A DNA stretch of 64,000 nucleotides from Chloroflexi bacterium 13_1_40CM_65_17. GTDB lineage: Bacteria > Chloroflexota > Dormibacteria > Dormibacterales > Dormibacteraceae. The notes below the pieces were generated by a model. It was not told the DNA's origin. It made no database searches and worked only from the letters and a program-made list of their open reading frames with translations. Location: assembly GCA_001917815.1 (NCBI GenBank), contig MNES01000063.1:23696-87695 (forward strand), read 5' to 3'. The number at the start of each line of letters is the position of its first letter. Position 1 is the first letter of the stretch. This document shows, piece by piece, positions 42,910 through 55,094 of this stretch. The position numbers and the translations under genes were made by a program.

Positions 42910-45474
42910 ATGAGCAGAACCATGACCGAGATGCCGAAGTCCTACGACCACAAGGCCACCGAGGCCGGATGGTACGCGCGCTGGGATGAGGCCGGACTCT
43001 TCACGGCCAACGCGAGGAGCCCAAAACCCAAATACACAATCTGCCTGCCTCCTCCGAACATCACCGGCGAGCTTCACATGGGCCATGCGCTCAACCACTC
43101 GCTTCAGGACTTCTGCTCGAGATACAGACGGATGTCCGGGTACGAGGTGCTCTTTCTGCCGGGCATGGACCACGCCGCCATCGCCACTCAGAACGTGATC
43201 GAGAAGCAGCTCGCCGCAGAAGGAATGACGAAGGAGCAGCTCGGCCGCGAGGCGTTCGAGTCTCGCGTCAACGAGTGGTATGTGGAGGTCGGGGACACCA
43301 TCGTGAGGCAGGACCGGATCCTGGGCGCTTCGCTGGATTGGACCCGGCTTCGATTCACGATGGACGAGCGTTACGTGCGATCGGTGATGACCGCATTCGT
43401 CGCTTTCTACGAGCGCGGATGGATCTACCGTGCGCCGCGCATCGTCAACTGGTGCCCACACGACCAATCCGCCATCTCCGACCTCGAGGTGAAGTGGGAA
43501 GAGCATCACGACACGCTTTACTACATCCGCTACCCGATAGAAGGCGGCGGTGAGGTGGTGATCGCGACGGTGCGCCCCGAGACGATGCTCGCCGATACCG
43601 CGGTCGCGGTGAACCCGACGGATCCGCGCTACCGATCGATTGTCGGCAAGACCGCGATCCTTCCGCTGGTCGGAAGAAAGCTGCCGATCGTCGCCGATGA
43701 GGCTGTCGAGAAGGACTTCGGCACCGGAGCGCTCAAGGTCACGCCCGGTCATGACCAGATGGACTACGAAATCGGGCAGCGGCATCACCTCGAGATCGTC
43801 AACGGCATGCATCCCGACGGGCGGATGAACGTGCCCGGGCTGCCGTACGACGGTCTGCCCGCGCTCGAGGCGCGACAGCTCGTCGTTCGCGACCTCAAGT
43901 CGCAGGGATACGTGGTCAAGGAAGAGCCGTACACACACGAGGTCGGCCACTGCGACCGCTGCGACGCGATCATCGAGCCCCTGATCAGCGAGCAGTGGTG
44001 GCTGCGGATGGACAAGATGCGCGACAAGGCGCTCGGCGCCTCGGCCGAGGGCAAGGTGCGATGGCATCCGGAGCGCTACGAGCGGACTTACCTCGATTGG
44101 CTGCACGGCCTACGCGATTGGAACATCGGCCGCCAGCTCTGGCTGGGCCACCGGGTGCCCGTCTACAACTGTGAGAACGGGCATCGGACCGTGGCGGTCG
44201 AGCGTCCCGCTGAATGCACGGAATGCGGGAGCCGTCAGCTCACGCAGGACCCGGACGTGCTTGACACGTGGTTCTCGTCTGCGCTCTGGCCGTTCGCAAC
44301 ACTCGGTTGGCCCGACGAGACCGAGGACCTTCGCGCCTTCTATCCGAATGACATGAACAGCACGGCACGGGAGATCATCAATCTCTGGGTGAGCCGGATG
44401 ATCATGACCGGCCTCGAGTTCATGGGCGAGGTGCCGTTCTCGGATGTGGCAATCCATTGCCAGGTCCAGGCGGCAGACGGGCGGCGGATGTCGAAATCGC
44501 TAGGGACCGGACTCGATCCGCGCCGCCTGATCACCAAGTACGGGGCAGACGCAGTTCGCGCGTGGGCGGCATCGGTTGCGATGTCGAGCCAAGATGTCCG
44601 CTTCGACGAGAGCCGGGTCGAGGGTTATCGCCGTTTCTGCAACAAGCTGTGGAACGCGGAACGGTTGGTGTTGGGGAACATCGGCGACGGCGCGGTCCCG
44701 GCAATTCCCGAAGCCGATGAGCTGGAGCTCATCGAGGACCGCTGGATCCTGTCTCGGCTTGCCTCAGCGCAGCGCGAGGTCACAGACGGCATCGAGGGTT
44801 TCGAATTTCAGGATTCGATCAACGCCGCTTATGGCTGTACATGGAACGAGTTGTGCGATTGGTGGCTCGAGGCGGCGAAGGACCGGCTGAAAGATGGCGA
44901 TAAGACGGCGCAGGCGGTCGCCATCTTCTGCCTGGACAACCTGCTCCGGCTACTGCACCCATTCATGCCATTCGTCACAGAGGACCTCTGGTCCCGATTG
45001 CCGGGCGAGCGCGACTTCATCATGCGCGCGCAGTGGCCTGAGGACCTACACCGTTACGTCGACGGCCAGGCCGAGGTCGAATTCGAGCGATTGATGGACA
45101 CCGTCAACGAAATTCGCTCATATCGCAAGACGATTGCGGGCGCACCGGCCAAGGGAGGAGCGGTGAAGCTGTTCGAGCCCGCGCCACCTGACTGGGTTCG
45201 AGCGCTCACGCTGCTGGGCAGCGTTGCGGCGGTCGATGAGCTGCCGCCGGGAAAATCATTCGGTCTCAGCGCGGGCAGCATAGTGTTCCCGGCAATCGCG
45301 GCAGCGGATCCCATGATCGCCGCGAAGAAAAAGGCCGAACTGCAGAAGGAGCTGGATCGCGTGCAAGCCAAGCTGGACAATCCTGAATTCCGAGCGAAAG
45401 CCCCGGAGTCGGTGATCGCCGAACAGCAATCGAGGGCCGACGAGCTGAGAGCCGCAATCGACCGCCTCGAATAG
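42910..45474 (+). CDS. valS: valyl-tRNA synthetase
   Basis: LPPPNITGELHMGHALNHSLQD, RRMSKSLGTGLDP, C-terminal coiled coil. Confidence 0.94.
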   Translation: MSRTMTEMPKSYDHKATEAGWYARWDEAGLFTANARSPKPKYTICLPPPNITGELHMGHALNHSLQDFCSRYRRMSGYEVLFLPGMDHAAIATQNVIEKQLAAEGMTKEQLGREAFESRVNEWYVEVGDTIVRQDRILGASLDWTRLRFTMDERYVRSVMTAFVAFYERGWIYRAPRIVNWCPHDQSAISDLEVKWEEHHDTLYYIRYPIEGGGEVVIATVRPETMLADTAVAVNPTDPRYRSIVGKTAILPLVGRKLPIVADEAVEKDFGTGALKVTPGHDQMDYEIGQRHHLEIVNGMHPDGRMNVPGLPYDGLPALEARQLVVRDLKSQGYVVKEEPYTHEVGHCDRCDAIIEPLISEQWWLRMDKMRDKALGASAEGKVRWHPERYERTYLDWLHGLRDWNIGRQLWLGHRVPVYNCENGHRTVAVERPAECTECGSRQLTQDPDVLDTWFSSALWPFATLGWPDETEDLRAFYPNDMNSTAREIINLWVSRMIMTGLEFMGEVPFSDVAIHCQVQAADGRRMSKSLGTGLDPRRLITKYGADAVRAWAASVAMSSQDVRFDESRVEGYRRFCNKLWNAERLVLGNIGDGAVPAIPEADELELIEDRWILSRLASAQREVTDGIEGFEFQDSINAAYGCTWNELCDWWLEAAKDRLKDGDKTAQAVAIFCLDNLLRLLHPFMPFVTEDLWSRLPGERDFIMRAQWPEDLHRYVDGQAEVEFERLMDTVNEIRSYRKTIAGAPAKGGAVKLFEPAPPDWVRALTLLGSVAAVDELPPGKSFGLSAGSIVFPAIAAADPMIAAKKKAELQKELDRVQAKLDNPEFRAKAPESVIAEQQSRADELRAAIDRLE

Positions 45475-45495: not shown

Positions 45496-47148
45496 ATGCC
45501 CGCGATCGCCCTACTTGCGCCCGTCGCCCTCCTGCTTGCGACCGCGGGTGCGGTCGCGATTTGCGGATCCGCCGGTTGGAAAGTCGACCGGATCGTGCTC
45601 GGGGTAGGATCGCTCGGCGCGATCCTCGTGATCGTCGGCCTGTGGGCGCCGGTCCGATCCTCGCAGGAGCTGAACCTCGGCCAGCTCGGCTTCGGCGCGT
45701 CGTTCGACCTGCGGCTCGACGCCGTGAGCTTCGTCTTCTCGCTCATGGTCCTCGTTCCCGCCTCGATCCTGCTAGCTCTGCAGCCACGCCCGTGGCAGGA
45801 GACCACGGTTGCGGTACTCGGCGTGGCCGCATCGGTGCTGGCGGTGGAGTCGGGCGGAGTCCTGCTGACGGCGCTGGCGGGCGGTGCCGCCGCCACGCTT
45901 GCCGTCGTGCAGCTCGACGTCGAAGACCCCCGAGCGCCTAGACCGGCATGGGGCGTGCTTCTCGCCGCGTGGCTGGCTTTGAGCTGGGTCGGAGCGCTCC
46001 TCCAGGTGCGCAGCGGGACCGCCGTGTACGCGGCTGTGCCGGTCTCGGCTCTGACCGTGCCCGTTTTTGTCCTGATGGCAGCGTCGGCGCTGATCGCCTC
46101 GGGGCTGTTCCCGTGGCGGGGATGGGCTTCCCAGCTGTGGGGCCGGCCCGCCCTGCGTGCGGCCGGGATGACCGTCGCGACCCTGTACCCGCTGGGCTTC
46201 TACCTCCTGGTGCGCGCGTACGAAATCGGCGACGGCCGCTATCCCCACTTCTCGCTGAACGCGATCCTCGCTGCGATTGGGGTGGCGGTCGCGTTCGGAG
46301 CCGCCGCTCGCGCTCAGGCCGCAGCCACCCGCCGCGAGTATCTCGGCGAGGTCATTCCCGGCCTGGGCGGCTTTGCGCTTATGGGGATCGCTCTCGGCAC
46401 CCCGCTCGGCCTGGCCGCCGGTCTGGCGACGCTGGCCGTCGCCGCGGTTGTGGCCGCATGCCTTCCCCTCCTGCCCGATCGCGCCGGTGCCGCGTCGCTG
46501 GTGGCTATCACGGCGGCCGCGGGCTTACCGCCGGCCCTCGCCTTCGGCGTCCGAGTGCTCGACCTGGAGGCGACCTTTGAGGCCGGCAATCTGCTCGGAA
46601 TCATCGGCATCGCGGGGGCGGCGACGTGGATGGTTTCGATCATCGCGGCGGCGCGGGCCATCGGTCTGCCCGCCGGCCGAGGCCACCCGGCAAGCGAGAC
46701 CAAACCCGCAGCCGCCATGGGGCTGGCGGCCGCCACCGTTCTTGCCGGTCCCGCGCTCGGTGTCGTCCTCACTACCCTTGCGCTTCCTGTCCAGGGCGAG
46801 GTGATGCCCGCCTCCGCAGGGGTGCCGATCGGGGGCTTGACATCGGTCGTGACAGTCTCGACCGTGCTGCCTGCCTTGACCCTGCTCGCCCCCGTCCTTG
46901 TGCTGGCGCTCGTGGTCTACATGGCCGCCGGGCCGGCGCCGGTGCGCGCGCAGCCGCGTCCCGCGCTGTTTGCGTTACCGGCGGCACAACAGCTCGGTCG
47001 CCTGCGGGATCAGGTACGCAGCTTTACCGTCCCCGACCAGTACCGATTCCTCGTCGACCTGCGGGCGCTCGAGGCCGCGGCCACCAGAGGTGGGCCGCTG
47101 CTGTGGCTGGCGGCGCTCGTCGCCCTGGCGTTCGCGGTCACCCGCTGA
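45496..47148 (+). CDS. polytopic membrane protein, degenerate proton-translocating NADH dehydrogenase/hydrogenase-4 antiporter-like subunit (NuoL/M-like)
   Basis: FDLRLDAVSFVFSLMVLVPASILLAL resembles NuoL/M N-terminal motif; LFPWRGWASQLWGRPALRAAGMTVATLYPLGFYLLVR resembles PxHxWLPDA...aatmvKaGvyLllR with key residues lost. Confidence 0.6.
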   Translation: MPAIALLAPVALLLATAGAVAICGSAGWKVDRIVLGVGSLGAILVIVGLWAPVRSSQELNLGQLGFGASFDLRLDAVSFVFSLMVLVPASILLALQPRPWQETTVAVLGVAASVLAVESGGVLLTALAGGAAATLAVVQLDVEDPRAPRPAWGVLLAAWLALSWVGALLQVRSGTAVYAAVPVSALTVPVFVLMAASALIASGLFPWRGWASQLWGRPALRAAGMTVATLYPLGFYLLVRAYEIGDGRYPHFSLNAILAAIGVAVAFGAAARAQAAATRREYLGEVIPGLGGFALMGIALGTPLGLAAGLATLAVAAVVAACLPLLPDRAGAASLVAITAAAGLPPALAFGVRVLDLEATFEAGNLLGIIGIAGAATWMVSIIAAARAIGLPAGRGHPASETKPAAAMGLAAATVLAGPALGVVLTTLALPVQGEVMPASAGVPIGGLTSVVTVSTVLPALTLLAPVLVLALVVYMAAGPAPVRAQPRPALFALPAAQQLGRLRDQVRSFTVPDQYRFLVDLRALEAAATRGGPLLWLAALVALAFAVTR

Positions 47149-47179
47149 TCAACTTGCGGATGCCTGCGACCGACCGCTC

Positions 47180-47719
47180 GTGACCGGCGCCGCGGGCTTT
47201 GCCGCCTGGGCCGGCGCGGCGATCATCGTCCTGGCGGACGGACGGCGAGGCCTGGCCGTCGGGATCGCACTGGTCGGCGCTGGATTCACCGTTTTGGCCT
47301 GGTTGGCGGGAGATTGGTTCGGGGGCGCGGCCCTGCTCGTGGGCGTCGCCGTCTGCGCGATCCAGCTGCTGCGCACGGGCCGGCAGGAGTGGGGCTTGAT
47401 GCCACCAGGCTCAACGGCGCGGCTGATCCTGGCCGTGGTCGGCGGCATCCTGTCGCTTTGGGTGGCGGCTTCGGTCACCACCGGCGCCGGCGCCCCCCTG
47501 AAGTTTGCATCCGTGACAGTGCTGAGCTTGCTGGCGGCGCGGCTGCTGCAGGCCCAGAAAGCGGTGCAGGTCCTCACCGCCTCCGCCGGCCTCGCCATCG
47601 CACTGGCCGGAGCATCTGCCCTAGGACGCAGCGTGCCGGGTTTGGTCCCATACCTGGTCGCGGGCGTGATCGCCGCCGGCGTCTCGTTGCTCCCGGTCGC
47701 GGAGTCCCGTGGAGCCTGA
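47180..47719 (+). CDS. small polytopic membrane protein (HyfE/NuoK-like position), unknown
   Basis: 180 aa, about 6 hydrophobic segments, sandwiched between NuoL/M-like and NuoN-like genes. Confidence 0.55.
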   Translation: MTGAAGFAAWAGAAIIVLADGRRGLAVGIALVGAGFTVLAWLAGDWFGGAALLVGVAVCAIQLLRTGRQEWGLMPPGSTARLILAVVGGILSLWVAASVTTGAGAPLKFASVTVLSLLAARLLQAQKAVQVLTASAGLAIALAGASALGRSVPGLVPYLVAGVIAAGVSLLPVAESRGA

Positions 47720-48794
47720 GCTCGCCTTCGCCCTACCCGAGGTGACCCTGTATATCTCGGCGATCAGTCGAGCAGCTCTGCTTGCCGCCGCCGGATCGCT
47801 TGCGCTCATCGTCGTCTTCCCTCCACCCAAAGCAGAGCGCGCCACCCTGTTGATGTGGGGCGTGGCCGGGATCGCCGCCATGGCGGCCATCGCGGCTGCG
47901 CCAAGCCTCGACCTGGTCATCCTTCTCACGCTGGCGATCGCCCTGCTGCATTCGGCGCTCGCCGGGCGTCGCTCGCTGGCGGCCCGACTTCGGGCGCCGG
48001 CCCTGGCGGTCGCGCTGCTCGGCCTTGCACTCGTATTCGCGCGTCTGGAAGGCCCACCGATCCTCGCGGCCTTCGCGGCGGTAGGTCTCGTCGCCGGACT
48101 GGCCGCGGCCCTGGGCGTTCTGCCGTACATCCACGAGTTCGACCCCGACGAGGTGACAGCCGCCTCGCCAATCGTTTGGATGGCCTTTCTCGGACCGGTA
48201 CTTGCCATCGCGGTGATAACGCGAGCGCGTGAGCTAATCCCAACCGCCGCTGCCGCCTTCCAGGCGATGCTGATCGGGCTCGGACTGCTGAACATCCTTT
48301 GGGGCGGCCTTGCCTCCTGGCTCACGGAAAAAGGCACATCTGCCTGGCACTACTCGTTCATGGCGGATTGGGGTCTCGTGCTGTGCGCCTTCGGCGTGCT
48401 GGTCGCCGACGGCCAGTCGGCGGCATTGCTGGTGCTCTACACCATCCTGCTGAGCCGTCTGCCGCTATACCTCTGGTCGCGCCAGCCGCTGCGCGACAGG
48501 GTTCAGACCGAAAAACCCATCAACCTCCTGGCCGCGGCGATGCTGGCGGGTTCGGCTCCGTTTGCGGGATTCGCCGCTCGTGTGCTGCTGCTCCGCGGTG
48601 CCACCCAGCTCTATTGGCCACTGGCGCTGGTGATCGCTATCGGCCTCCTCATGTGGCTGCCGCCGTCGCTCCGGCTGGGACGCAGCCTTGGCCTGCCGCG
48701 TGGCCGGCAGGCGGTGGGCGCCGGCATCGCCCTCGCGCTCAGTGTCGCGATCGGACTGTATCCGCAGCCAATTCTTTCTTTGGCCGGACTATGA
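47709..48794 (+). CDS. polytopic membrane protein, NuoN/HyfF-like degenerate antiporter subunit
   Basis: VLPYIHEFDPDEVTAASPIVWMAFLGP and GGLASWLTEKGTSAWHYSFMADWGLVL align by eye with NuoN channel-helix motifs; overlaps upstream and downstream genes. Confidence 0.6.
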   Translation: MEPELAFALPEVTLYISAISRAALLAAAGSLALIVVFPPPKAERATLLMWGVAGIAAMAAIAAAPSLDLVILLTLAIALLHSALAGRRSLAARLRAPALAVALLGLALVFARLEGPPILAAFAAVGLVAGLAAALGVLPYIHEFDPDEVTAASPIVWMAFLGPVLAIAVITRARELIPTAAAAFQAMLIGLGLLNILWGGLASWLTEKGTSAWHYSFMADWGLVLCAFGVLVADGQSAALLVLYTILLSRLPLYLWSRQPLRDRVQTEKPINLLAAAMLAGSAPFAGFAARVLLLRGATQLYWPLALVIAIGLLMWLPPSLRLGRSLGLPRGRQAVGAGIALALSVAIGLYPQPILSLAGL

Positions 48795-49600
48795 GCAGGA
48801 TCCTCATCCAGCTCGCGACGCATTCGGTGGCGCTGCTGCTGTATCCCGGCCTTGTCACGATCGCTCTGTTCGGCAGCGCGGCCGAAAGCGTATGGGTGCG
48901 CGTCACGGAGCGGCGCTGGGTGCTGCCGGAATTTCCATGGCATCGCCCGTCGGCCGTGCTGACCACGGCAGCCATAGCTTCGATGCTCGCTTGCGTCCAG
49001 CTCGCCGCTCCGTTCAACCCGGTGCCATCGGAGGAGCGCAACCTGATCGTCGCCGCGATCTCGCTTGGAATCATCGTCTGGGCAGAGCTCGCGATTGGCG
49101 CCGAGCTTTTCGGCGAACCAGGCCTGCTCCTGTTGATCCAGTGCTGCTGGTTCGTGGCGGTCCTGGGTCCGGCGGTCGAACCGCAGAGCCTGCGCCCGCA
49201 AGTGCTGGGGGGGGTGTTGGTTCCATCGCTGCTTCCACTCAAGGTCGCGAGCGGAATCCTTTATCTGTTGTGCCTTCCGGCGCTGCTCAAGCTGTGGCCG
49301 GTGCCGGTGCCGGGTGAGAGGCGAGCCACTCGGCGGCTCGACGCGCTGCGTGTGCTCTCGTGGTGGCCATACTGCGGCCTGTTCGCGACGCTCTACTTTC
49401 CGCCGTCGCCGGACGAATTGCTCGGCATCGCGCGATTCATCGGCCTGAGCGTGCTCGTCGCCGCGATCTGCGTGGTCTTGGGTGTGCTCATGAGACGGCG
49501 GGGCGCGGAGCCTGCGCGCGGAATCTATCGAAAGGGCATCGCGCCCTTCGCGGGCCTGGTTCTGGTGCTGGTGGTAGGGACTTCACTGCTTCTTCGCTGA
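48791..49600 (+). CDS. polytopic membrane protein, possibly NuoH/HyfC-like
   Basis: About 8 hydrophobic segments; ATGA overlap with upstream gene. Confidence 0.5.
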   Translation: MSRILIQLATHSVALLLYPGLVTIALFGSAAESVWVRVTERRWVLPEFPWHRPSAVLTTAAIASMLACVQLAAPFNPVPSEERNLIVAAISLGIIVWAELAIGAELFGEPGLLLLIQCCWFVAVLGPAVEPQSLRPQVLGGVLVPSLLPLKVASGILYLLCLPALLKLWPVPVPGERRATRRLDALRVLSWWPYCGLFATLYFPPSPDELLGIARFIGLSVLVAAICVVLGVLMRRRGAEPARGIYRKGIAPFAGLVLVLVVGTSLLLR

Positions 49601-49717: not shown

Positions 49718-50776
49718 ATGAGCTTGCTGACCTCTGTGTTGGGGATCTGGTCGGCCGACATCGGCATCGACCTCGGGACCGCCAACACCCTGGTGCATGT
49801 CCGCGGACGGGGCATCGTCGTCAACGAGCCTTCGGTGGTGGCGGTGAGCACGCTCACCGGCCAGGTCCTCAGCGTCGGCACCGAGGCGCGCCGAATGCTC
49901 GGGCGGACGCCGGCGGACATCGTTGCGATGCGCCCCCTCCGCGACGGTGTGATCGCGGACTTCGAGCACACCGAGCAGATGATCAGGCACTTCATCGCGC
50001 GGGCACACAACCGCGCGTGGCACATCAGCCACCCTCGAATCGTGATCGGGATTCCATCCGGAGTCACCGAGGTCGAAAAACGCGCCGTCACCGACGCGGC
50101 AACGATGGCGGGGGCGCGCGAAGCGCATCTGATCGAGGAGCCGATGGCGGCTGCAATCGGCTCCGGGCTCCCGATCCAGTCCGCCGCCGGGTCGATGGTC
50201 GTCGACATCGGTGGCGGCACCACCGAGGTTGCGGTCATCTCGCTAGGCGGAATCGTGGCGGCGACCTCGGCGCGGGTGGGCGGCGACGAGATGGACGAGG
50301 CGATCGTCCAATACGTGCGCCGCAACATGGGCCTGCTGATCGGCGAGCGCACCGCCGAAGACATCAAGATCGCCATGGGCTCCGCTTTTCCGATGGCCGA
50401 CGAGCGATCGTTCCTCGTTCGCGGTCGCGACCTCATCACCGGCCTGCCGAAGACCGTGGAGATGACCACCGCCCACGTACGCGAGGCGTTGAGCGGTGTG
50501 CTCATCGACATCGTGCGCGCCGTCCGCTCGACGCTCGACACGACCCCCGCAGAGCTGGTCGAGGACATCATCGAGCGCGGCATGGTTGCCTGCGGCGGAG
50601 GTGCGTTGCTCGCCGGCCTGGACCAGCTCCTCGCGCACGAAACCCTGATGCCGGTCCGCGTTGCCGAGGACCCGCTGACCTGCGTGGTCCGCGGCACCGG
50701 AATCGTCCTCGACGAGATCGACACGCTGAACCGGGTGCTCCTGCGCACGCGGCGCGCGCGAGCACTTCGTTCCTAG
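49718..50776 (+). CDS. mreB: rod shape-determining actin homolog MreB
   Basis: IGIDLGTANTLV, IGIPSGVTEVEKRAV, VVDIGGGTTEVAVIS, CGGGALLAGLD. Confidence 0.96.
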   Translation: MSLLTSVLGIWSADIGIDLGTANTLVHVRGRGIVVNEPSVVAVSTLTGQVLSVGTEARRMLGRTPADIVAMRPLRDGVIADFEHTEQMIRHFIARAHNRAWHISHPRIVIGIPSGVTEVEKRAVTDAATMAGAREAHLIEEPMAAAIGSGLPIQSAAGSMVVDIGGGTTEVAVISLGGIVAATSARVGGDEMDEAIVQYVRRNMGLLIGERTAEDIKIAMGSAFPMADERSFLVRGRDLITGLPKTVEMTTAHVREALSGVLIDIVRAVRSTLDTTPAELVEDIIERGMVACGGGALLAGLDQLLAHETLMPVRVAEDPLTCVVRGTGIVLDEIDTLNRVLLRTRRARALRS

Positions 50777-50780
50777 GCCG

Positions 50781-51596
50781 ATGTATGGGAGGGCCCGGCC
50801 GCGGTCGACGGGTCGATTCCTGGCGCTCGCCGCGGCGATGCTTGCCCTCGCGGTGCTGTCTCAGCAGTCATGGGCGGAGGGTGTCCGCGGCTCCGCGAAA
50901 AGCGCTCTGGCGCCATTGGAGGCTCAGATGATGTCGGTCGCCTCCGCGGTCGAGCACGCAACAGCGATCTTCGGCGACATCGCAAGCCTGCGTGCGCAAA
51001 GCCGGCGCTTGAATGCTGAGAACCAGGACCTCAAGCGCCAGGTAGCCGAGCTGAATGCGGCCGCGCTCGACAACAAGGAGCTGCGGCAGGCGCTGGACTT
51101 CCAGCGCGCATTCGGTCATAAAACCGCGGTCGCCGAGGTCGTCGGTCGCGGCCCCGACGCGTTCAGCCGCACGCTCCAGATCGACCGCGGAACGAATGAT
51201 GGAGTGCGCGCTGGAATGATCGTCGTCAGCGGGGCGGGCCTGGTCGGGCGCGTGCGCGAGACGGGACCTCACGGCGCCATTGTGCAGACGCTCGCCGACC
51301 CGCAGAGCCGCGCCAATGTCTACCTGTCTGGATCCGGGCTGCAGGGGACGATCATCGGCGGCCCGGCGGCGCTACAGCTGCAGCTCGAGCACCGCCTTGG
51401 TGCAACCGCGTCCAAGGGCGAGTGGGCAATCACCAGCGGCATCGGCGGCGGTTATCCCCGTGGTCTGGTGGTCGGCGATGTCACCAGCGTCATACACAGC
51501 GATGCCGCTACCGTCGATACGGCCCTCGTCGATTGGGTCAACGATCCCGCGGCCATGAGCCTCGTCATCGTGGTCATGGATTTCACGCCTGCATGA
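50781..51596 (+). CDS. mreC: rod shape-determining protein MreC
   Basis: N-terminal TM plus coiled coil, AEVVGRGPDAFSRTLQIDRGTNDGVRAGMIVVSGAGLVGRV. Confidence 0.93.
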   Translation: MYGRARPRSTGRFLALAAAMLALAVLSQQSWAEGVRGSAKSALAPLEAQMMSVASAVEHATAIFGDIASLRAQSRRLNAENQDLKRQVAELNAAALDNKELRQALDFQRAFGHKTAVAEVVGRGPDAFSRTLQIDRGTNDGVRAGMIVVSGAGLVGRVRETGPHGAIVQTLADPQSRANVYLSGSGLQGTIIGGPAALQLQLEHRLGATASKGEWAITSGIGGGYPRGLVVGDVTSVIHSDAATVDTALVDWVNDPAAMSLVIVVMDFTPA

Positions 51597-52093
51597 AGGC
51601 AGTGGCCGGCCTGCTCTTCTTGCTGGCGGCGGCGCTGGTCCAGGTCACGTGGGCCTCGCGGCTCGAGGTCGCGGGGGCGTTTCCGAACGTGGTTCTCATC
51701 GCAATCATCGGGTTTACGTGGTCTCAAGGCGTGCGCGCCGGGCTGCTCTGGGCGTGCGTCGGGGGTCTCCTGCTCGACCTCAACGCCCCGGGTCCGCTGG
51801 GCCCGCACGCGCTGGCCCTCCTCGTGAGCGCCTACGTGACCGGCTTCTGGGCCCGCAACCTCGACCGAGAGAGCCCATTGCACCCCGCCGGCGCTGCCGC
51901 GGCCGGCACCGTGCTGTATTCGCTCGTGCTGATCGGCGCTGACACTGTCCTGGGCCTACCCATTCCTGCTTTTCGGACCGCGCTGCAGCTGGTGATTGCG
52001 GCGTCCGTTTACAACGCAGCAGTGATGCCGCTCGCGCTGCTCGCGTTGCGGCGCGTGACCGTCGGTCTTCGCTGGGAGCCGTCGGCCACTTGA
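51593..52093 (+). CDS. mreD: rod shape-determining protein MreD
   Basis: Small polytopic protein between mreC and mrdA, ATGA overlap. Confidence 0.85.
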   Translation: MKAVAGLLFLLAAALVQVTWASRLEVAGAFPNVVLIAIIGFTWSQGVRAGLLWACVGGLLLDLNAPGPLGPHALALLVSAYVTGFWARNLDRESPLHPAGAAAAGTVLYSLVLIGADTVLGLPIPAFRTALQLVIAASVYNAAVMPLALLALRRVTVGLRWEPSAT

Positions 52094-53985
52094 TCGACCC
52101 AGGCCGGTTGATCGAGCTTGGCGGCGCTGCGCCTCGGCCGCGATGGTCGGTGAGGATGGTGGCCGCGGCCGTGCTAGTGGTGCTCCTCGTCGGAGTCCTT
52201 TCGCTGAAGCTCGCGCAGCTGCAGGTCTACGACTCGGCAACGCTCGCTGGGCTTGCCCGGGCCAACACGGTCCATCGCGTCGTCCTCGAAGCCGACCGCG
52301 GGATCATCTACGACCGGCACGCTGTGCCCCTGGTGCAGAACACGCCGGTCTGGAATCTCGAGATCGTGCCCGCTGATCTGCCCGCGGACGCTCGAGGACG
52401 CGCCGCAGAGCTCGCCGCAATCGCAGCGCTCACGGGCCAGCCCGAAGACGGGCTGCACGCGGTGCTCGGAGTCGCCGACCCGTTCACCCCCGCCCGCGTG
52501 GGCCCGGACCTCACCGACGCGCAGGTCCTTGCCTTCAACGAACGCTTGCCGGCTCTCGCAGGCGTGTCGCTTGCTCATCATGCGGTGCGCACGTATGCGG
52601 ATCCCATGACGTTCGGGCACGTCGTCGGATATGTGGGCCCGCTCGACGACGAAGACCTGAAGCGGCTCAGGCCGCGCGGCTACCAGCCCGATGAGGTCGT
52701 CGGCAAGGTCGGTGTGGAGGCCGGCCTGGAATCGATTCTTCGTGGCACCAACGGGTGGGCCGATGTCGAGGTCGACGCGCGGGGGCAGATCGTCAAGACC
52801 ATCGCGATGCAGCCGCCGGTGGCCGGGCACGCGGTGTACCTGACCATCGATGCGTCGCTGCAGAGCGCAACAGCGCAGGCGCTCGCGGCCGGCCTGCAGC
52901 GCGATCACAAAACCGCGGGCGCGTCGGTCGTCATCGATCCGCAGTCGGGCGAGGTGCTCTCGCTGGTCAGCCTGCCTGGTTATGACACCAACCTCTTCAC
53001 GCACGGGATCTCACACGCGGCCTACAACCGCCTGGTCACAGACCCGGACCGGCCCCTGCTCAACCGCGCGATCGCGGGCCAATACGCGCCCGGATCGACT
53101 TTCAAGATGGTGACGGCGACGGCCGGCCTCCAGGAAGGCAAGATCACCGCGCAGACATTGCTCGGCTGCCCGAGCTATCTGTCATACGGCGGCTGGGTCT
53201 ATCACAACTGGGCGAGCTACAACCTCGGCTACATGAATGTCGCCAAGGCACTTGCGGTGTCGTGCGACACCTTCTTCTATCAGGTCGCGGCCATGGTCGG
53301 TGACGTGACGCTTGCGCGGTACGCGCGGGCCTTTGGATTCGGGCAGGCGAAAGCCATCGAGATGCCGGGTGTGCAGCCGGGACTCGTGCCGGATCGAATC
53401 TGGAAGCAGCTGCAATGCGACGCCCCTGACCTCAACTCGGACTCCTGTCGCTGGACGTTGGGCGACACGATCACATTCGGTATCGGCCAGTCGGCCCTGC
53501 TCACGACGCCGCTCAACCAGGCCGTGTATGCCGCCGCGCTTGCCAATGGCGGCCAGGTTCTCCAGCCGACGCTCGTCTATCAGGTGCGCGACGCAGGCGG
53601 TGAGGTGATCTCCACCCACCAAAGGCAAGTGGTCGACAGCGTTCCCGCCTCGCCGGCCAACCTGGAAGCCGTGCGCGAGGGTATGCGCCAGGAGATCAAC
53701 CGCCCGTACAACATGAATTACTGGTTCCGCTCCGCGGGCGTGCCTGCAGACGGCGGCGGCAAGACCGGCACCGCGCAGTGGGGCGGAAGCGGGCTCGACC
53801 TCCCGACTCATGCGTGGTTCGTGTTCTTCGCCCCTTACTCACAGCCCGACGTGGCGTTGTCGGTCTTCGTCGAGCGCGGCGAGCTGTCGGAGGTCGAGGC
53901 GGCGCCGATCGGAGTCCAGATCATGAAATTCTTCAATGGCAGTCGGGCCGCGATTCACACAGCCACCCCCAAAGCTCTGGCATGA
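52090..53985 (+). CDS. mrdA: penicillin-binding protein 2
   Basis: RGIIYDRHAVPLVQN, YAPGSTFKMVTA (SxxK), KTGTAQW. Confidence 0.94.
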   Translation: MIDPGRLIELGGAAPRPRWSVRMVAAAVLVVLLVGVLSLKLAQLQVYDSATLAGLARANTVHRVVLEADRGIIYDRHAVPLVQNTPVWNLEIVPADLPADARGRAAELAAIAALTGQPEDGLHAVLGVADPFTPARVGPDLTDAQVLAFNERLPALAGVSLAHHAVRTYADPMTFGHVVGYVGPLDDEDLKRLRPRGYQPDEVVGKVGVEAGLESILRGTNGWADVEVDARGQIVKTIAMQPPVAGHAVYLTIDASLQSATAQALAAGLQRDHKTAGASVVIDPQSGEVLSLVSLPGYDTNLFTHGISHAAYNRLVTDPDRPLLNRAIAGQYAPGSTFKMVTATAGLQEGKITAQTLLGCPSYLSYGGWVYHNWASYNLGYMNVAKALAVSCDTFFYQVAAMVGDVTLARYARAFGFGQAKAIEMPGVQPGLVPDRIWKQLQCDAPDLNSDSCRWTLGDTITFGIGQSALLTTPLNQAVYAAALANGGQVLQPTLVYQVRDAGGEVISTHQRQVVDSVPASPANLEAVREGMRQEINRPYNMNYWFRSAGVPADGGGKTGTAQWGGSGLDLPTHAWFVFFAPYSQPDVALSVFVERGELSEVEAAPIGVQIMKFFNGSRAAIHTATPKALA

Positions 53986-55094
53986 GAGCGGCCGTGTGGA
54001 ACCGGCTCGACCATCTGCAGCCGCTGCTGGCCGGGATGCTCGTGGCGCTGGGCTTGATGACGGTGTACAGCGCCCGCGCCGACTGGATGCGGCAGCTCGT
54101 CTGGGTGATTCTGGGCGCCGCGGCGTACGCCGCCGCGACCGCGTTCGATTACCGGCGATTGCGCGCGCTCGCGCCCTGGCTCTACCTGGCGATGCTGGCC
54201 ATGCTCATCTCCGTTCGCCTGCTCGGACGGACCACGCTGGGTGCGCAGCGATGGCTGTCCGTCGGCGGCTTTCCCCTCCAGCCTTCTGAGCTGTCCAAGC
54301 TCATGCTGGTGCTGGTCCTGGCCGCATACCTCAGCCGGCTGGATAGGATTTCGTGGCGCGCGTTCATCGCGGCTATCGGCCTCGTGGCCCCGGTCGCGGC
54401 GCTCATCCTCCTCCAGCCCGACCTCGGCACGACCATCGTGGTCGTCGCCGTCGCCATGGGGATGCTGTTCCTCGGCGGCGCGCGAGTCGTCCAGCTCGGT
54501 TCGGTCGCCGCGTGCGCGGTCGTGGTGATTCCCCTGCTGCCGCACCTTCTGCACGGCTACCAGCGGCGGCGTCTCGAGATTTTCCTGAATCCAAACTCCG
54601 ACCCGCTGGGGGCGGGGTACAACCTCCTTCAAGCTCGCATCGCGGTCGGCGCCGGCGGCCTGTTCGGGCAGGGGTGGCTCCACGGCCTGCAGGGGGCGCT
54701 GGGCTTCGTTCCCGAGCGCGCCACCGACTTCGTTTTCGCCGTCTTCGCCGAGCAGTTCGGGCTCCTTGGATCGCTGCTCCTGCTGGCGATCTTCGGCACT
54801 CTTTTGATCCGGCTGCTGCGCTCGGCGGCGGCAGCTCCGGACCGGTTCGGCGCGCTGGTGGCGGCCGGCGTGTTCGTGATGATCTTCGCGCAGGTGGTCG
54901 AGAACGTGGGCATGAACATCGGTCTGCTCCCGATCGCCGGCATTCCCCTGCCACTGATCTCGTACGGGGGATCGGCAACGGTGACCACGCTCGCGGCACT
55001 GGGATTGGTCCAGTCGGTGACGCTGCGCCGGCCCCTGCTGCTCCGACCGCAGGCCGGCTGGTCCGGTAATATCACCGTTCGTGCCCAAGCCTGA
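53982..55094 (+). CDS. rodA: rod shape-determining SEDS protein RodA
   Basis: GAQRWLSVGGFPLQPSELSKL, QPDLGTT, ERATDFVFAVFAEQFGLLG, GIPLPLISYGGSAT. Confidence 0.95.
   Translation: MRAAVWNRLDHLQPLLAGMLVALGLMTVYSARADWMRQLVWVILGAAAYAAATAFDYRRLRALAPWLYLAMLAMLISVRLLGRTTLGAQRWLSVGGFPLQPSELSKLMLVLVLAAYLSRLDRISWRAFIAAIGLVAPVAALILLQPDLGTTIVVVAVAMGMLFLGGARVVQLGSVAACAVVVIPLLPHLLHGYQRRRLEIFLNPNSDPLGAGYNLLQARIAVGAGGLFGQGWLHGLQGALGFVPERATDFVFAVFAEQFGLLGSLLLLAIFGTLLIRLLRSAAAAPDRFGALVAAGVFVMIFAQVVENVGMNIGLLPIAGIPLPLISYGGSATVTTLAALGLVQSVTLRRPLLLRPQAGWSGNITVRAQA

Follow-up and report, generated by a model that had tools for sequence, protein, structure and literature searches.

The evolution of respiratory complex I is usually told as the joining of antiporter modules with hydrogenase modules. 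Hydrogenase-4 and formate hydrogenlyase have a comparable membrane arm (HyfB-HyfC-HyfE-HyfF), and the Mrp (CPA3) Na+/H+ antiporters use NuoL/N-like subunits in a redox-free setting. In the antiporter subunits of complex I the ion path comprises a Glu/Lys ion pair, a middle Lys and a distal residue that is Lys or Glu (PMC9271201, PMC11496545), and NuoL-like proteins are also used without a redox arm in DAB2, where one drives CO2 hydration (PMC13144422), and in MpsAB (PMC6689103). We describe here a cassette of four open reading frames (ORF1 to ORF4) in a 64,000-nucleotide stretch (hereafter the window) of the genome of Chloroflexi bacterium 13_1_40CM_65_17, a member of the class Dormibacteria, which are uncultured soil bacteria (assembly of 2.5 Mb, 84% complete). 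We hold with moderate confidence, from sequence profiles and structural models, that its products form a redox-free membrane complex whose origin is the membrane arm of the complex I superfamily, comprising an L-like ORF1, an N-like ORF3, an H-like ORF4 and the seven-helix ORF2. We found no description of such a redox-free Dormibacteria cassette in the open-access papers searched.

The four genes (550, 179, 361 and 269 amino acids (aa)) are co-directional on the + strand and fill the slot between valS, which ends at 45474, and mreB, which starts at 49718. ORF1 and ORF2 are separated by 31 base pairs (bp), ORF2 and ORF3 overlap by 11 bp and ORF3 and ORF4 by 4 bp (ATGA), and the start codons are ATG, GTG, GTG and ATG, respectively. 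This arrangement of adjacent hydrophobic genes is as described in an initial reading of the DNA letters (the sequence-only reading). All four ORFs have a positive coding score and are intact in relatives, and the ratio of nonsynonymous to synonymous substitution rates (dN/dS) between congeners lies between 0.06 and 0.27 across the four; they are therefore real genes, and all are under purifying selection. Chance or spurious ORFs are ruled out by coding score, dN/dS and synteny, and strain-specific degeneration by the class-wide occurrence of the features of the cassette. An apparent natural fusion of ORF1 with ORF2 and of ORF3 with ORF4 at one locus (L043) was an artefact of N runs.

None of the four proteins matches any Pfam family above cut-off, so the resemblance to complex I and hydrogenase-4 subunits noted by the sequence-only reading could not have been derived from a database label. 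ORF3 alone gives a weak NCBIfam match to NdhD/NuoM (expectation value (E) 1e-5), and among 32 relatives of ORF3 two match PF00361, the better one at E 4e-5. Direct sequence searches of Pfam, PHROGs and the PDB with the cassette proteins returned only faint matches, the best PDB match of ORF1 being MrpA (7d3u_A, E 0.004). Profile comparisons by HHalign used reference sets of NuoL, M, N, H, J and K drawn from Chloroflexota genomes. ORF1 matched NuoL best (probability (P) 96.4, E 1.4e-9, about 420 columns), rising to P 98.2 and E 3.8e-14 when its orthologues from other Dormibacteria families were included; ORF3 matched NuoN best (P 96.8–97.0, E 9e-11, about 400 columns), rising to P 98.1 and E 1.1e-13 when combined with class orthologues. 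Seven unrelated families, taken from the same genomes and consisting mostly of membrane proteins, reached no more than P 2.3 in 28 comparisons against these profiles. By these alignments ORF1 is a NuoL/M/N-type and ORF3 a NuoN-type complex I antiporter-type protein, which bears out the NuoL/M/HyfB and NuoN/HyfF patterns first seen by eye.

The AlphaFold2 model of ORF4, built from 30 sequences, has a predicted local distance difference test score (pLDDT) of 84.3 and a predicted TM-score (pTM) of 0.85. When this model was searched against the PDB with Foldseek, the best 50 matches listed were all NuoH/ND1/MbsM-type chains (E from 2.5e-4, prob 1.00, TM-scores of about 0.6–0.68 for the best matches). 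HHalign found no sequence match between ORF4 and the NuoH profiles (P about 2 or less), and the orthologues of ORF4 in two other families have little in common beyond an N-terminal Y-P motif. Because its modelled fold matches NuoH yet sequence profiles do not, we assign ORF4 as a very diverged H-type protein, in agreement with the NuoH/HyfC-like identity that had been suggested as a possibility. ORF2 fared differently: its AlphaFold model (pLDDT 87.9) has seven helices, and the earlier placement of this protein in a HyfE/NuoK-like position finds no support in HHalign values of P 0.3 or less (0.1–0.3 for HyfE), against P 91 for a HyfE versus NuoK positive control. Candidate identities of ORF2 as NuoK, HyfE or NuoH all lacked HHalign support, and a faint colinear match (P 16) was found to the NuoJ of a second cassette described below.

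We number the ion-path sites by transmembrane helix (TM), with the Glu/Lys pair on TM5 and TM7, the middle Lys on TM8 and the distal site on TM12. Aligned to these sites, ORF1 of the window's family (hereafter f1; f2, f3 and f4 are other families of the class) has a small residue for the TM5 Glu (Gly130 in the window), Ala201 for the TM7 Lys (within ..LIASGLFPWRGW..), Pro232 at the TM8 site and Arg353 for the TM12 Lys. ORF3 has Ala134, Pro163 and Arg291 for the TM7, TM8 and TM12 Lys, respectively, and the last two are invariant across f1, f2 and f4. In both proteins the TM12 site stays basic. The TM5 Glu/TM7 Lys pair is lost in both proteins of f1. The sequence-only reading had noted the loss of both residues in ORF1 and of a Lys in ORF3 but misplaced one segment: TLYPLGFYLLVR of ORF1, which it took for the TM7 Lys site, is the TM8 site, and the true TM7 site is ALIASGLFPWRGW, with Lys replaced by Ala. 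At the TM5 site of ORF1 all five f2 orthologues have Glu, f3 and f4 have Gln, and f1 has lost the residue, which by alignment forms a gradient across families, though one with few independent lineages; an Arg near the ORF1 TM7 site is visible in f2–f4, where the alignment is uncertain. Separately, the canonical Dormibacteria NuoL (G007, L168:8524-10446) has GWAMVG in place of the expected GWEgvG segment with the TM5 Glu, and the columns conserved in the Chloroflexota NuoL set do not include a TM5 Glu.

The cassette is conserved at one locus across the class, in genomes that are mostly or all metagenome-assembled. ORF3 is present in 34 of the 36 f1 relatives searched (G002, 71% complete, gave an insignificant match only, and G035 none), and the order valS-ORF1-ORF2-ORF3-ORF4 is kept in f1 wherever the contig permits. 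Profiles built from f1 sequences only gave no strong match outside f1. In f2 and f4 the valS-rplU slot holds four hydrophobic genes that match those of f1 in size, with Maf and a gene for a secreted repeat protein behind them. Set against f1, the f2/f4 profiles gave a diagonal table with P 98.7, 95.1, 98.2 and 43 for ORF1 to ORF4. In f3 the slot holds a two-gene version (ORF1 and one other gene), of which one gene matches f1 ORF1 with P 97.9. Orthologues of the cassette therefore follow valS in three families of Dormibacteria, and a fourth has a reduced version. The combined ORF2 profile was found in 84 of 110 class genomes and in none of f3, and the ORF3 profile reached E < 1e-27 in f1, f2 and f4 only; among 399 genomes of the phylum the cassette was absent outside Dormibacteria, where the ORF3 profile gave weak matches (E 1e-12 to 1e-4), widespread across Chloroflexota, to antiporter-type frames of about 500 aa.

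The gene that follows ORF4 could be read at 31 f1 loci, including the window; 13 continue into mreBCD-pbp2-rodA and 18 into rplU without the mre block. The block is also missing behind the cassette at f2–f4 loci, where valS and the cassette stay together. Since it is absent behind the cassette at 18 of 31 f1 loci, the mre neighbourhood is not a functional clue, and the envelope link suggested from it is not supported.

By Pfam and by gene reading, the window cassette contains no gene of redox, NiFe, Fe-S or Mrp type, in line with the absence of NiFe, Fe-S, NADH or Mrp-type companions reported initially. A survey of homologous neighbourhoods gave the same picture: no Q-module gene (NuoB, NuoCD or NuoI) occurs at any f1–f4 cassette locus read, and the NiFe large and small subunits are absent from the cassette and its neighbourhoods. 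A divergent redox module in f2, f3 or f4 was considered and rejected: on reading the sequences, as opposed to a family search, the genes after the cassette encode Maf and secreted repeat proteins, with a further small protein in f3. Elsewhere in the genome, f1 members have a single strong match to PF00346 (49-kDa), which is the canonical gene, with an extra weaker match in G015 and G025. Tests of the more complete f1 genomes gave one strong NADHdh (PF00146) gene each, except in G015, which has two and also contains a hydrogenase-4-like cluster. In the window genome itself no NuoH was found, presumably through an assembly gap. The counts in f1 make a dedicated redox arm elsewhere unlikely; the canonical arm may be shared. 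One f2 genome (G043, 91% complete; L253, L249) has no 49-kDa gene, no NuoH and only two PF00361 genes, and keeps both this cassette and the second one. We downgraded it as proof of independence from complex I, as its congener G385 has the 49-kDa gene and the missing gene may reflect an assembly gap.

This second cassette holds the window genome's only three PF00361 genes above cut-off (contig C79, L035:6749-12385), which belong to a J-K-L-M-N set that has neither H nor redox genes and is placed between ABC exporters and a penicillin-binding protein, with mnmA and ThiS upstream. It is present in f1 and at the f2, f3 and f4 loci read, and in the searched f1 set every genome with ORF1–4 also shows its M gene. 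Arg replaces Lys at the TM7 site in its f1 L and M proteins, and in M also at the TM8 site, while the f2 and f3 versions are mixed at the Lys sites.

Set against described systems, ORF1–4 resembles the membrane arm of complex I in its antiporter-type ORF1 and ORF3 (by profiles) and in the NuoH fold of ORF4, but it lacks NuoB, CD, E, F, G and I, it has lost the TM5 Glu, TM7 Lys and TM8 Lys, and ORF2 does not match NuoK. The hydrogenase-4/formate hydrogenlyase arm has a similar set of an L-type subunit, an H-type subunit and a small subunit before an N-type one; the cassette differs in having neither HyfG/HyfI nor another catalytic or Fe-S subunit, in that ORF2 does not match HyfE, and in that its H-type gene comes last. 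Like the Mrp antiporters it is redox-free and has NuoL/N-like subunits, although none of its four proteins matches MrpB, E, F or G by Pfam and its ion-pair residues are lost; Mrp is not known to have an H-like subunit, unlike the cassette. DAB2 and MpsAB share the use of a NuoL-like protein without a redox arm, whereas ORF1–4 comprises four membrane proteins, an H-like and an N-like one among them; a DabA-type (zinc, carbonic-anhydrase-like) partner has no Pfam match in the cassette, the rest of the genome not having been searched. The J-K-L-M-N cassette is likewise redox-free, conserved across the class and found in the same genomes, but its L, M and N are recognisable by PF00361, its f1 L and M have Arg for Lys, and it has no H-like subunit.

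The cassette has no electron-handling partners and most of its proton-pumping residues are gone, but selection still acts on it; it therefore probably serves something other than respiration. We infer that its source was an ancestor of the Dormibacteria in which ORF1 retained the TM5 Glu, and that it no longer pumps protons through the canonical Glu/Lys-Lys-Lys relay. Most likely, in our view, the proteins form a membrane assembly that is not driven by electrons, with ORF4 as a former docking subunit and ORF1 and ORF3 as antiporter-fold bodies; it would act as a conduit, passive or gated, or else play a structural part. The obvious candidate partner is the J-K-L-M-N cassette, which occurs in the same genomes and, unlike ORF1–4, has no H-type subunit. 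That the two unlinked cassettes form one redox-free complex-I-type machine, with proton-path Lys changed to Arg, Pro or Ala and an electron-independent job, we put forward tentatively, as a possible but doubtful extension; if true, an old pump architecture has been turned to a new task. Several observations weigh against these readings. The ORF2 model found no significant fold match in the PDB by Foldseek. Mirror-tree partial correlations (r) of ORF1, ORF3 and ORF4 with the orphan M (0.55–0.70) compare with 0.44–0.56 for the same genes with rplU and 0.62 for orphan M with rplU; f3 keeps J-K-L-M-N but only ORF1 and one other gene of the first cassette; and the hypothetical link between the cassettes draws solely on their co-occurrence and complementary content.

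ORF4 could instead still bind the quinone or hydrophilic module of the sole complex I, making the cassette an alternative, non-pumping or low-yield membrane arm. Its NuoH-type fold would suit such docking, and the single NuoD/49-kDa gene of f1 genomes could be shared in trans, but the divergence of ORF4 beyond any NuoH profile, the scant similarity among its f2 and f4 orthologues, and the retention of both cassettes in G043 (subject to the possible assembly gap noted above) make this unlikely. We also consider it improbable that the genes encode a minimal Mrp-like cation transporter or ion-driven device with a rearranged ion path including the TM12 Arg: DAB2 (PMC13144422) and MpsAB (PMC6689103) set a precedent for redox-free use of NuoL-like proteins, the TM12 Arg is invariant in ORF3 and the TM5 Glu survives in f2 ORF1, but MrpB/E/F/G and DabA-type matches are missing among the four proteins by Pfam, and the proton-wire ion-pair Glu/Lys and middle Lys (PMC11496545, PMC9271201) are gone in f1. 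Loss of key residues, the reduced f3 version and the TM5 gradient might be expected of a relic of an old complex I or hydrogenase-4 cluster on its way out; low dN/dS in all four genes, and their intact, syntenic state in nearly all f1, f2 and f4 genomes, make such decay very unlikely. Least probable of all, to the point of being barely credible, is an envelope module coupled to the mre/rod system, for which the adjoining mreB of the window speaks and against which stand the many loci where valS stays and the mre block does not. From the sequence-only reading we retain the antiporter-type ORF1 and ORF3, the H-type ORF4, the degenerate ion path, the missing redox partner and, with moderate confidence, the repurposed membrane complex; we drop its HyfE/NuoK-like ORF2 and its envelope link. 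Under the redox-free reading, a membrane arm including the H-type subunit would have been kept without a redox module, and with an altered proton relay, across a class of soil bacteria. This would amount to a natural test of what antiporter and NuoH folds are capable of when no electrons are involved, and of the ways in which a pump once driven by redox chemistry can be repurposed.

The coordinates of the features discussed are collected below.

Table. Features of the cassette and its neighbours, in window positions
Feature	Position	Strand	Basis or remark
valS	42910..45474	+	constant upstream neighbour of cassette
ORF1, NuoL/M/N-type membrane protein, 550 aa	45496..47148	+	HHalign to NuoL; residue table
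ORF1 residue 130 (Gly), TM5 Glu column	45883..45885	+	alignment columns; Glu in 5/5 f2 orthologues, Gln in f3 and f4
ORF1 residue 201 (Ala), TM7 Lys column of NuoL (..AKSAQLPLHTW..)	46096..46098	+	alignment
ORF1 residue 232 (Pro), TM8 site (NuoM/N middle Lys)	46189..46191	+	alignment; Pro in almost all families
ORF1 residue 353 (Arg), TM12 Lys column (NuoL K399)	46552..46554	+	alignment
ORF2, conserved 7-helix membrane protein, 179 aa	47180..47719	+	AlphaFold model; faint NuoJ-like signal only
ORF3, NuoN-type membrane protein, 361 aa, shortened N-terminus	47709..48794	+	HHalign to NuoN
ORF3 Pro163, invariant, TM8 middle-Lys site	48195..48197	+	alignment
ORF3 Arg291, invariant, TM12 Lys site (NuoN K395)	48579..48581	+	alignment
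ORF4, NuoH/ND1/HyfC-type fold (predicted), 269 aa	48791..49600	+	AlphaFold2 and Foldseek
mreB-mreC-mreD-pbp2-rodA	49718..55094	+	adjoins cassette here; not conserved as neighbour

Three further features of the locus were observed among relatives. Close relatives differ in whether mreBCD-pbp2-rodA lies between ORF4 and rplU, and this patchiness extends to members of a single genus (L050 versus L054). In f3, a membrane protein of about 520 aa (L243:13362-14930, L240:11416-12936) stands in place of ORF2–ORF4; its C-terminal part weakly matches ORF3 (E 1.8e-6), and the protein could have arisen by fusion or represent a reduced version. Missing in f1 and at the f4 loci read, a double zinc ribbon membrane protein of about 155 aa lies between valS and the cassette in f2 and f3 (L242:11818-12300, similar in L239-L246).

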